Below, piece after piece: positions 51,823-56,323 of a stretch of 56,323 bases of DNA; within the stretch, counting starts at the first letter, position 1, and the number at the start of each line of letters is the position of its first letter. The notes below the pieces were generated by a model that saw nothing but the letters and a program-made list of their open reading frames with translations, did not search any database and was not told the origin of the DNA. Source of the stretch: an uncultured Armatimonadota bacterium (GTDB taxonomy: Bacteria > Armatimonadota > Fimbriimonadia > Fimbriimonadales > Fimbriimonadaceae); the NCBI GenBank assembly GCA_903833215.1, contig CAILEM010000134.1, positions 1 to 56,323 of the forward strand, given 5' to 3'. The position numbers and the translations under genes were made by a program.

Positions 51823-52800
51823 TTAGTAAGCAAACAGGGCTGGAATTCCTCCGGTATGCCAAAACAAGACTCGTCCGGTCAGTTCACCCTTCTCCGCAAG
51901 GTCAATCAGACCCGCAAACGCCTTCCCAGAATATATCGGGTCAAGAAAAATCCCTTCAGAACACCCCAGTCGCTTTATCGCTGCGGTACCTGCTTCGCTG
52001 GGAATTCCATATCCAGGACCGACGAACGAGAAGTCCAAGTCATAGTCGTCGGCAAGGATGTCAGGAATATCCGGGAGGTACTGCTTCAGACCTTTTGCTA
52101 GCTCTGCGAAATCTTGGGCGATCTCCGGCTCAGGATCACATGCGATGCCAAGAATCCGAGTTTGGCTGCCCGCAAAGGCCACAGCCAAGCCGGTGTGAGT
52201 GCTCCCGCTCGAACTCGCAAAAATGATCGCGTCAAAGGTCTGGTCAAGCTCTTTAGCCGCTTCGACGAAGGCATACGCCCCCAGAGGTGAAGATCCACCA
52301 ATAGGCATGCGATAGACCGTTTTGCCTTGGGCCTCGTACTCCAGAGCAAGCTGTTCGGCAAGATCGTAGAGCTCCTCCCATGTGCCGTTCGCATGAAACC
52401 TAAGGTCTGTTCCCAAGATGTCGTTCAAAACGAGGTTGCCCCCTGAACCGTGGACGAGCGTTTCAGGCTCCGCATCTTCGTAAGGCATGTTCATCACGGC
52501 GGCCGCGCATCTGAGGTCAAGCATCCGACAGGCGGCCGATAACTGCCGAATAAAGTTCGACTGAGCCGCTCCGCAGGTGACAACAACCTTGGCTTGGGAA
52601 GCGAGGATGTCTGCCATCAGATACTCCAGTTTTCTCCCCTTATTGCCGCCAAGGGCGAATCCGGTTAAGTCATCCCGCTTGATCCAGAGATCAATCCCGA
52701 GCTGTTTTGACATCGCACCTAGCCGATGTAGCGGAGTTGGCGACTGAATTAGTGGAATACGTCCGGGTAGCACGTGTGTCAGTTTACGGTCTGGATACAT
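51823..52800 (-). CDS. PLP-dependent deaminase, D-cysteine desulfhydrase/ACC deaminase family
   Basis: A 325-residue fold-type II PLP enzyme. The Schiff-base Lys54 is in GGNKGRKLEYL; CGAAQSNFIRQLSAACRML near 78 holds the Asn/Ser that contact PLP and substrate; ASSSGSTHTGLA near 193 is the phosphate cup. The family deaminates D-cysteine, ACC or other small amino acids; I cannot tell the substrate from the sequence. It is named from family similarity. ATG 52800 is used because a CATACC -10 lies 7 bases upstream and overlaps the start codon of the divergent gene at 52811. Confidence 0.88.
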   Translation of the reverse strand: MYPDRKLTHVLPGRIPLIQSPTPLHRLGAMSKQLGIDLWIKRDDLTGFALGGNKGRKLEYLMADILASQAKVVVTCGAAQSNFIRQLSAACRMLDLRCAAAVMNMPYEDAEPETLVHGSGGNLVLNDILGTDLRFHANGTWEELYDLAEQLALEYEAQGKTVYRMPIGGSSPLGAYAFVEAAKELDQTFDAIIFASSSGSTHTGLAVAFAGSQTRILGIACDPEPEIAQDFAELAKGLKQYLPDIPDILADDYDLDFSFVGPGYGIPSEAGTAAIKRLGCSEGIFLDPIYSGKAFAGLIDLAEKGELTGRVLFWHTGGIPALFAY

Positions 52801-52813
52801 AATCGTCGGTATG
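52798..52813. promoter_or_regulatory. Interlocked divergent leaderless promoters
   Basis: On the plus strand CATAAT (52798-52803) is followed by 7 bases and ATG 52811; on the minus strand CATACC (complement of 52808-52813) is followed by 7 bases and ATG 52800. Each hexamer contains the reverse complement of the other gene's start codon. Both genes are separated by only 10 bases. Confidence 0.55.
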
Positions 52814-53365
52814 GCTTTTGGTCGTCGGATTCTGCGGCGGGTTGGATTGGGCTGTTTGACCCTCGTGATTCTGGCACTGGCGTTATTGTTTCTCACCAAA
52901 AGCGGTCAAGAGGTTCGAGATCTCGTGTCTCACGGTTTCCTGAATGAATATCTTTCGCCCGAGGAATCGCGAAAATACAATGCGAGTAACCTTCAGAACC
53001 TTAAGAACCTATTTACAGCGATGTCTCTCTACCATGAATCCGAAGGCCAGTTCCCTTCGGCAAATGGCTGGATGGATGCCTTGAAAAGTTACGGTGCTGC
53101 ATCCGATCTCGCCAAAGGCGAAGCTGACAAACGGTTTGTAGCCCCTGAGTTTTCAGGCAAGCCAGGACAATTTGGCTATGCCATGAACGATGCCTTAAGC
53201 GGCAAATATAAGGGCGATATTAAAGACCCCAAAACACCACTCCTATTTGATTCGAGTGACACTTCCCGAAATGCTCACGGCGACCCCAAAAAGTTACTGC
53301 CGTCGCCTGCTCGAGCTGGCGGCAACCTTGGCGTTGCTGTCGACGGCACGATCCTCAAGCTATAA
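52811..53365 (+). CDS. Membrane-anchored pseudopilin-like protein
   Basis: A 184-residue protein: Arg-rich start, one hydrophobic helix LGCLTLVILALALLFL (residues 14-29), then a soluble domain. The latter resembles the globular part of type II secretion pseudopilins seen in Planctomycetes and Armatimonadetes: HESEGQFPSANGWMDALKSYG, FGYAMNDALSGKY and a closing GGNLGVAVDGTI. The prepilin peptidase motif (Gly-Phe-Thr-Leu-x-Glu) is absent, so it is not processed as a pilin; it may be a membrane-fixed derivative. Its last codons CTA TAA form the -10 of the E1 gene. Confidence 0.65.
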   Translation: MAFGRRILRRVGLGCLTLVILALALLFLTKSGQEVRDLVSHGFLNEYLSPEESRKYNASNLQNLKNLFTAMSLYHESEGQFPSANGWMDALKSYGAASDLAKGEADKRFVAPEFSGKPGQFGYAMNDALSGKYKGDIKDPKTPLLFDSSDTSRNAHGDPKKLLPSPARAGGNLGVAVDGTILKL

Positions 53366-53366
53366 T
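53361..53366 (+). promoter_or_regulatory. Consensus TATAAT -10 spanning the upstream stop codon
   Basis: The final CTA TAA of the pseudopilin-like gene followed by T makes TATAAT. A TGTCGA hexamer 17 bases upstream could be the -35. The E1 mRNA would have a leader of about 50 bases with GAGGT before ATG 53422. Confidence 0.6.
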
Positions 53367-53421
53367 TGATGAGCTTCAGTGGCGAAGAAAAGGCCCCATT
53401 TCAACGACGAACGAGGTAACT

Positions 53422-55383
53422 ATGTCAGCCATCTCCGCCAATAAGGCGTTCTCAAAAATCGAGTTCCTAAAACTCATGCTCCTTAGTCGGGAGGGTGACC
53501 GTCGCGAAGGCATCCTCCTAAGGCAAAGCAAAGGTTGGTTCCAAGTGAGCGGCATGGGGCATGAAGCCCTCGGTGCCCTTTCCCTTTGCTTGCAGCCAAG
53601 CGATTACCTCTTCCCTTACTACCGAGACCGATCGATCGTACTTGCCCGTGGCTTGACGAACTACGATCTCGCCTTGGCCTATTTCGCCAAGCGAACCAGT
53701 AGCTCAGCGGGTCGTCAGATGCCAGGCCACTACTCGGATCGATCCAAGAATATTTTTAGCGTTTGCACACCGACGGGTGGATCGCTGTTGCCCGCTTGCG
53801 GTGCCGCTTGGTCGATGAAAATGGCAGGAGATGCTTCTGTCTGCCTTACCACCGTTGGAGATGCCGCCTCTCGCCAAGGTGAGTTCTTTGAAGCGATTGC
53901 CTTTGCCGTCCAGGAAAAACTTCCGGTCATCTTCGTTGTCGAAGATAACAAGTACGGAATTTCAACGCCAACCGATAAGTTCCTACCCTTCAACCTTGGA
54001 ATATTGAGTGAGGACATCGTCGTCAAAATCGACGCCCGATATCCCGATAACGTTTACAACGCCGGACTAGCTGCCGCCGATAAGGCTCGACGTGGCGATG
54101 GGCCAACGATTATCTGGGCAGACATCGATCGGCTATCCCCGCACACCTCAAGCGATGATCACCGCATTTATCGAACTGCGGAAGATATCGAGTCGATGAC
54201 CGCCCGAGACCCTATTCGACTTCTCGTCGAAGAGTTAAAGTCTGCGGGAGAACTCACCGACTCTGAGTGGGAAGCCCTTCAGGAAGAAACGGCGAAGCGG
54301 GTCGACGAGGATTACCTCCTTGCTGAAAAGGAAGAAGATCCATCGCCATCTGACGACCTGATTCATGTCTTCGGTGACCAGCGGCCAGCAGAAGTACCTC
54401 CATTGCCACCTGGCCAACGGTCCACGATGGTCAGCGCCATCAGTACGACCTTGCGCAAGGCGCTCGAAAGCGACCCGACCGTGGTGATCTTTGGAGAAGA
54501 CGTCGAAGATCCCAAGGGTGGCGTTTTCGGGATGACCAAGGGGCTAAGCGATAGCTTCCCCAAGCAAGTTTTCAACTCGCCGTTGGCGGAAGCGACCATC
54601 ATGGGAGTCGCAGTCGGAATGGCGGCGTACGGCTACCACCCGGTGTTCGAGTTGCAGTTTATCGACTTCATCGCTCCTGGTTGGAATCAGATTACGACAA
54701 ACATGTCGACGCTTCGCTGGCGCTCCAACGGGGACTGGAAGTGTCCGCTGGTGATCTATGCTCCTTACGGCGCTTATCTGCCTGGTGGATCGCTCTGGCA
54801 CAGTCACAGCAATGAGTCGTCGCTCGCTCACGTTCCTGGAATTCAAGTTGCGATTCCTTCGACGCCGGAAGATGCCGCTGGACTGTTTTGGTCGGCGATT
54901 CACTCCGATGATCCAAGTTTCATCCTGATTCCCAAGCACATTTTCAGAAAGCAGGTGAACGTAACCACCGTAGAGCCGGTGCCGTTCGGCAAGGCCAGGG
55001 TCGTTGCTGAGGGCACTGACGTCACTCTCGTTACGTGGGGTAACTGCTTAGAATTGGCCGAAGAAGCCGCCGCCGCCGTGAGCGCAAGCATTGAGATCAT
55101 TGACCTCAGATCAATCGTTCCATGTGACTACGACACGATCGTAACGTCTTTGGAGAAGACGGGACGCCTTGTCGTTGTCCACGAAGACAACCGCACCTGC
55201 GGCTTTGGCCAAGCAATCATCGCCGAAATCACAAGAGTCCCCAAGCGTTGGAACCTATTCCTCTCGCCCCCGCAATTGGTTGCAAGAGATGACGTCCACA
55301 TCGGCTTCAACCCGATCTACGAATACGCGTCGCTGCCAGATGTCGATCAAGTGATCGCTGCGATCAACGTCGTCATGGAATAG
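53422..55383 (+). CDS. Fused alpha-beta 2-oxoacid dehydrogenase E1
   Basis: A 653-residue thiamine-diphosphate enzyme in which the alpha subunit (residues 1-325) and beta subunit (about 335-653) of a branched-chain or pyruvate-type E1 are joined. The TPP/Mg motif runs from GDA at 146-148 to Asn176 (FVVEDNKYGIS); GDG is changed to GDA. The beta half has GEDVEDPKGGVFGMTKGL, FNSPLAEATIMGVAVGMAAYG and the transketolase C-terminal WGNCLELAEEAA. Single-chain E1 enzymes of this type occur in several phyla. It decarboxylates a 2-oxoacid and passes the acyl group to E2 lipoate. No E2 or E3 gene is nearby. GAGGT is the ribosome binding site. Confidence 0.93.
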   Translation: MSAISANKAFSKIEFLKLMLLSREGDRREGILLRQSKGWFQVSGMGHEALGALSLCLQPSDYLFPYYRDRSIVLARGLTNYDLALAYFAKRTSSSAGRQMPGHYSDRSKNIFSVCTPTGGSLLPACGAAWSMKMAGDASVCLTTVGDAASRQGEFFEAIAFAVQEKLPVIFVVEDNKYGISTPTDKFLPFNLGILSEDIVVKIDARYPDNVYNAGLAAADKARRGDGPTIIWADIDRLSPHTSSDDHRIYRTAEDIESMTARDPIRLLVEELKSAGELTDSEWEALQEETAKRVDEDYLLAEKEEDPSPSDDLIHVFGDQRPAEVPPLPPGQRSTMVSAISTTLRKALESDPTVVIFGEDVEDPKGGVFGMTKGLSDSFPKQVFNSPLAEATIMGVAVGMAAYGYHPVFELQFIDFIAPGWNQITTNMSTLRWRSNGDWKCPLVIYAPYGAYLPGGSLWHSHSNESSLAHVPGIQVAIPSTPEDAAGLFWSAIHSDDPSFILIPKHIFRKQVNVTTVEPVPFGKARVVAEGTDVTLVTWGNCLELAEEAAAAVSASIEIIDLRSIVPCDYDTIVTSLEKTGRLVVVHEDNRTCGFGQAIIAEITRVPKRWNLFLSPPQLVARDDVHIGFNPIYEYASLPDVDQVIAAINVVME

Positions 55384-55414: not shown

Positions 55415-55469
55415 TCCGCTGTAGGAGCAGGGCGTGCCCTGCTAACCCAACGTGGGTTGTTACAGCGGA
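55415..55469. repeat. REP-like three-way-junction element
   Basis: An outer 9-bp stem pairs TCCGCTGTA (55415-55423) with TACAGCGGA (55461-55469). Inside it are two hairpins: AGCAGGGC/GCCCTGCT (55426-55443) and AACCCA/TGGGTT (55444-55458). The element folds into a three-way junction on either strand. It lies about 100 bases upstream of a RAYT gene, the usual partner of REP sequences. Confidence 0.7.
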
Positions 55470-55472
55470 AGC

Positions 55473-55496
55473 GGGAGCGAGGCGCGCCTCGCCCCG
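55473..55496. repeat. REP-like palindrome, second copy
   Basis: A perfect 16-bp palindrome GCGAGGCGCGCCTCGC at 55477-55492 preceded by GGGA. It shares the pattern GGAGC-RRGGCG-YGCC-YYGC with the first palindrome at 55424-55443. Confidence 0.65.
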
Positions 55497-55559
55497 ACAC
55501 CACTTTTGCGGGATGGCGCGGCGTCAACAACCGTGATAGGATTGCAACCGCGGGATTCT

Positions 55560-56138
55560 ATGAACCGGAAGTTCTTTAACAGCACACATCGCCTAAAAGG
55601 CTTTGACTACTCTTCAGCGCGATGGTATTTCGTTACGATCTGCACCTATGAAAAGCGATGCAATCTCTCCCGCGTAGACGGTCCGCGAGTTCAACACTCC
55701 CAATTCGGGAGAATCGTGGAAGAGGAGTGGCAACGTACCGGCGAACGGAGGCGCTATGTCGCATTGGGCGAACATGTCATCATGCCGAACCACTTTCACG
55801 GACTGATTGGACTCAGCCCTCTCGAAGATCGCACGAATCCCAACTCTCCCGAGCGCGAACTTTCTGGACAGCTGAATGGGAAGAAGACTCTCAGCTCGAT
55901 CGTCGGCGCCTTCAAGTCGGCGGCAACGAAACGCATTAACGTCCTTCGCTCAACACCTGGAGCCGAATCCTGGCAAATCGGATTTCATGACCATGTGGTA
56001 CGAGACGTCAAGGAATTCGAAGAGATTACGAGCTACATCGCTTTCAGTCCATTGAACTGGCATCTGGACAAGAACAACCCCGATTACGAATCAATCGCAG
56101 ATGAAGTCCGTGACTGGAAATTCGAACACGGCATGTGA
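55560..56138 (+). CDS. REP-associated tyrosine transposase (RAYT)
   Basis: A 192-residue Y1 transposase of the IS200/RAYT class. WYFVTICTYEKRC opens the fold; the metal-binding HxH is in MPNHFHGLI (about residue 80); and the nucleophile Tyr is in EEITSYIAFSPLNWHLD, where most relatives have YIxxNPxxW. RAYTs cut single-stranded REP hairpins and are thought to spread them through the genome; they are usually single-copy and domesticated rather than free IS elements. ATG 55560 is used because upstream frame belongs to the REP region. REP-like palindromes lie upstream, and a group II intron lies downstream. Confidence 0.88.
   Translation: MNRKFFNSTHRLKGFDYSSARWYFVTICTYEKRCNLSRVDGPRVQHSQFGRIVEEEWQRTGERRRYVALGEHVIMPNHFHGLIGLSPLEDRTNPNSPERELSGQLNGKKTLSSIVGAFKSAATKRINVLRSTPGAESWQIGFHDHVVRDVKEFEEITSYIAFSPLNWHLDKNNPDYESIADEVRDWKFEHGM

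Positions 56139-56184: not shown

Positions 56185-56323
<139 letters not shown>

Follow-up and report, generated by a model that had tools for sequence, protein, structure and literature searches.

Two kinds of described systems come close to the arrangement discussed here. In Deinococcus radiodurans, about one third of genes possess a -10 motif located 6-7 bp before the open reading frame; when tested, this leaderless -10 motif proved sufficient without a -35 element, and some true starts were found inside annotated ORFs (PMC12340547). Leaderless genes of bacteria in general have been surveyed as well (PMC3160421), and our literature search retrieved no paper on such genes in Armatimonadota. 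The second kind is represented by bidirectional promoters, which are defined by divergent transcription starts 7-25 bp apart and by shared -10 positions (PMC10268837). For five of them, tested in E. coli, no competition was seen at basal activity, and it appeared only under strong activation of one direction (PMC12825309).

The window, by which we mean the whole analysed stretch of 56,323 nucleotides, belongs to a 6.2-Mb genome of an uncultured Armatimonadota bacterium. The sequence CATAATCGTCGGTATG is found exactly at its positions 52798-52813, and the 10-bp gap between the ATG of the plus gene (52811) and an ATG of the minus frame (52800) is real in the letters. A preceding sequence-only reading took both codons for starts of divergent genes 10 bp apart, with a -10 hexamer of each gene (CATAAT on the plus and CATACC on the minus strand) holding the start codon of the other, and predicted mutually exclusive expression. 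There is nothing unusual in such geometry: a sample of 982 kb from the same genome contains 264 instances of CAT-N10-ATG, near the chance expectation of about 240 (1/4096); this sample, 0.98 Mb out of 6.2 Mb, is the source of all genome-wide figures given here. The identical 7-nt spacers, presented as a feature of the pair, carry no information, because a 10-bp gap forces them arithmetically once each hexamer opens with the start codon of the opposite gene. What we propose for the locus, with good confidence, is a divergent leaderless pair with closely set -10-only promoters of opposite direction (Table 1).

Table 1. Features of the divergent pair, in positions of the window
Feature	Position	Strand	Description
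Minus gene (P0001 from residue 10)	51823..52773	-	PLP-dependent enzyme, D-cysteine desulfhydrase / ACC deaminase-related family; 316 aa from GTG 52773
Start codon GTG of minus gene, most likely the true one	52771..52773	-	Conserved CAC in alignment; orthologue starts
Putative -10 element TAAACT of minus gene	52781..52786	-	7 nt before GTG 52773
Minus start ATG of the sequence-only reading	52798..52800	-	Rejected; letters belong to plus -10 CATAAT
Putative -10 element CATAAT of plus gene	52798..52803	+	7 nt before ATG 52811
Plus gene P0002	52811..53365	+	184 aa, small protein, N-terminal hydrophobic helix, family-specific; ATG start 52811

An Rfam search revealed no structured RNA at the locus. 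At the contig end it matched RF00029, a group II intron domain (63.9 bits, 56185-56256, minus strand), which suggests a group II intron as the place where the contig breaks off. Close to this end lies an ORF of 228 aa (55452-56138, plus strand), whose product looks, by eye, like a REP-associated tyrosine (Y1-type) transposase with a PNHFHGL motif.

The product of the minus gene matches PF00291 with an E-value of 1.4e-37 and 130 bits, well over the 35-bit cut-off. The nearest NCBIfam model is TIGR01275 (D-cysteine desulfhydrase family), for which the score of 253.6 bits (2.8e-75) stays below the curated cut-off of 289.4. The enzyme has its closest named relatives in Fimbriimonas and other Fimbriimonadaceae (Armatimonadota). 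Its reading frame stays open past ATG 52800 and further upstream. Over 48 distinct loci, the distance from the in-frame start of the enzyme to a fixed anchor residue downstream is mostly 8-10 and sometimes 12 codons; for GTG 52773 it is 8 codons and for ATG 52800 it is 17. In the footprint alignment of four congeners, CAC (the complement of GTG) is invariant together with TTTACG, CATAAT and TATG, and the arrangement TAAA(C/A)T-7-GTG is retained in congeners G019, G004 and G012. Among about 11,000 internal control starts, just 0.05% score as high as TAAACT-7-GTG. The minus gene thus most likely starts, as predicted from these comparisons, at GTG 52773, nine codons inside the originally assumed ORF, and the true intergenic gap would be 37 bp rather than 10. 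A different start codon inside one of the genes had been named beforehand as an observation that refutes the embedded arrangement, and on the minus side such a codon was found.

The original choice, with a minus start at ATG 52800, a -10 at CATACC and mutual embedding as the basis of exclusive expression, now appears highly improbable. In its favour, G000, G019 and G004 have this ATG in an open, matching frame, and the gene would start with an ATG instead of a GTG. In G012 (L004), however, an in-frame stop separates the ATG from the GTG, in G007 (L115) the frame closes before reaching the place of the ATG, and elsewhere the ATG is absent, while orthologues start at the GTG position. CATACC itself is at chance level, with 33-38% of internal control starts scoring equally or better. 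The corresponding position in the four closest genomes reads CATACC, CATATG, CATAGG and CATATC; the constant CATA is forced, being the complement of TATG at the plus start. Residues added by the longer N-terminus likewise vary among relatives (MYPDRKLTH, MSPQRKLLR, MARSRKLTP) with the exception of RKL, a tripeptide that corresponds to the codons of the -10 sequence CGTAAACT. Of the two embedded elements, the one on the plus strand therefore stands and the one on the minus strand does not, and the notion that each hexamer includes the opposite start codon has to be abandoned.

Orthologues of the plus gene are present in 82 of 101 relatives. The protein has no match in Pfam or NCBIfam, nor in PDB, either by sequence profile or by fold (E <= 0.001); its AlphaFold model has a mean pLDDT of 85. 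Taken by itself, CATAAT matches only modestly in its own genome (its score is reached by 5.6% of controls, and its first base departs from TAnnnT), so that the case for the plus promoter is carried by conservation. In the footprint alignment of the four closest genomes, CATAAT and the ATG are invariant and the spacer between them varies. The expectation of conservation for the whole 16-base block was thus confirmed for CATAAT and TATG, and not for the bases between them. Many of the more distant orthologues carry CATAAT, TACAAT or TAAAAT 5-8 nt before the start. Judged by its orthologues, CATAAT-7-ATG 52811 is a real and conserved element, predicted to act as a leaderless promoter and start. 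A weak -35-like GTGTCA is located 16 bp before CATAAT, and given its presence the promoter may not be strictly of the -10-only type. Beyond the plus gene, the stretch 53365-53422 leads to the next gene (ATG 53422), by eye a fused E1 alpha/beta-type dehydrogenase, whose start is preceded at a few nt by a Shine-Dalgarno-like GAGGT; leadered and leaderless starts hence appear to stand side by side.

Leaderless signatures, as predicted from motif position, are common in this Fimbriimonas-type genome. TAnnnT peaks exactly 6-7 nt before candidate ATG and GTG starts, the values for ATG being 4.3% and 3.4%, compared with 0.3-0.4% for internal starts. Out of 636 genes, a matrix search selected 145 where about 24 were expected, i.e. 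about 120 above chance. In the genome sample, GG is favoured directly before the hexamer of leaderless genes (54% and 49% G), and no conserved -35 was recognized among the 145 sites. Divergent neighbours with both motifs number 9 of 128 against about 6 expected if independent, a rough count given that the gene caller missed the 184-aa plus gene, and there is no clear excess of divergent leaderless pairs among these 128 neighbours of the sample. A TAnnnT-like -10 about 6-7 nt before the start, the mark of the leaderless class, is present in both genes of our pair, and the leaderless signal extends over the genome. The earlier suggestion that neither gene has a leader or an upstream ribosome-binding site agrees with this, as both appear leaderless.

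At the locus, a distance of 17 bp (start to start) separates the two -10 elements, and one of 38 bp the predicted transcription starts. Divergent adjacency is kept across many genera of the family, and with it a variable spacing. Of the 35 divergent orthologous pairs, 23 have their predicted starts 22-49 bp apart and others up to 91 bp; the -10 offset, taken over the pairs with sensible start calls, ranges from 2 to 72 bp, and three of the 35 gave nonsensical calls (start-to-start -50, -29 and 7 bp). Starts scoring at least 1.0 with the -10 matrix were obtained on the minus side in 23 of 35 pairs (null 2.4%) and on the plus side in 20 of 35 orthologues (2.4% of internal best-of-three controls), where the picks used the same motif score, favouring good motifs, and the null relied on a comparable best-of-three pick. 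Some pairs are devoid of a good -10 on one side. In L208 (G044), L205 (G059) and L009 (G011), the two -10 elements overlap at a start-to-start distance of 22-24 bp, and in L208 the sequence ACTATACT is readable as a -10 both ways. By predicted distance, these three are candidates for bidirectional promoters in the strict sense.

From the motifs, their conservation and the genome-wide signature, which come from sequence and comparison, we infer transcription starts, leaderless translation and occupancy at our locus. The plus transcript would begin at the A of ATG 52811, 7 nt after CATAAT, and the minus transcript at the G of GTG 52773, 7 nt after TAAACT. RNA polymerase bound at one such promoter would cover the other, as follows from promoter footprints. 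With the two promoters this close together, only one of them would be occupied by polymerase at a time. To this extent the sequence-only reading, which had a polymerase bound for one gene covering the start of the other, holds with the corrected start: simultaneous binding is not expected. Both genes would still be expressed at ordinary activity.

One could go further and regard the corrected pair as a regulatory switch, in which polymerase occlusion has been selected and the expression of the two genes is anticorrelated. The divergent adjacency conserved across many genera and the short distances in most pairs, some with overlapping -10 elements, speak for this idea. Yet the spacing drifts over the whole range of offsets given above, unlike a precise overlap under selection, no regulator site was identified, and the five bidirectional promoters of E. 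coli are non-competing at basal activity (PMC12825309); we consider the switch unlikely, and with it mutually exclusive expression is not supported. In another alternative, transcription is leadered from true promoters located further away, within the coding region of the opposite gene in each case, and the -10-like motifs at the starts are incidental. Orthologues lacking the motif on one side are compatible with it, whereas the positional peak at exactly 6-7 nt across the genome and the conservation of the motifs at the locus argue against it, and we deem it very unlikely. The divergent leaderless pair is an ordinary arrangement for the group.

A more speculative and rather doubtful extension is that the pairing of the enzyme gene with the gene of the small, presumably membrane-anchored protein is kept in the family through the shared polymerase-binding zone of leaderless -10-only promoters, coupling or limiting the expression of both genes. 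If this were true, the family would present a natural series of promoter overlaps, with shared -10 elements in some genera and a 14-23 bp offset elsewhere. As a set, the orthologous pairs could be useful for testing the effect of promoter distance on polymerase interference, but as a single locus the pair is ordinary. Taken together, a start codon is corrected, and the sequence points to large-scale use of leaderless genes in a Fimbriimonas-type genome of Armatimonadota.

With bacterial bidirectional promoters described by Warman, Grainger and colleagues (PMC10268837, PMC12825309), the locus shares, by prediction, divergent starts, closely set -10 elements, steric exclusion of polymerases and a location often found between divergent mRNA genes. 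It falls outside their definition, as its predicted starts are 38 bp apart and its -10 elements do not overlap (offset 17 bp). With leaderless genes of Deinococcus-Thermus and other bacteria there are these features in common: the TANNNT motif, the spacing of 6-7 nt, the missing -35 signal, the ATG or GTG starts, and a true start that sometimes lies inside the longest reading frame. Unlike those cases, the genes considered here belong to Armatimonadota, are predicted from sequence alone and show slightly different preferences, namely GG before the hexamer and the CATAAT variant.
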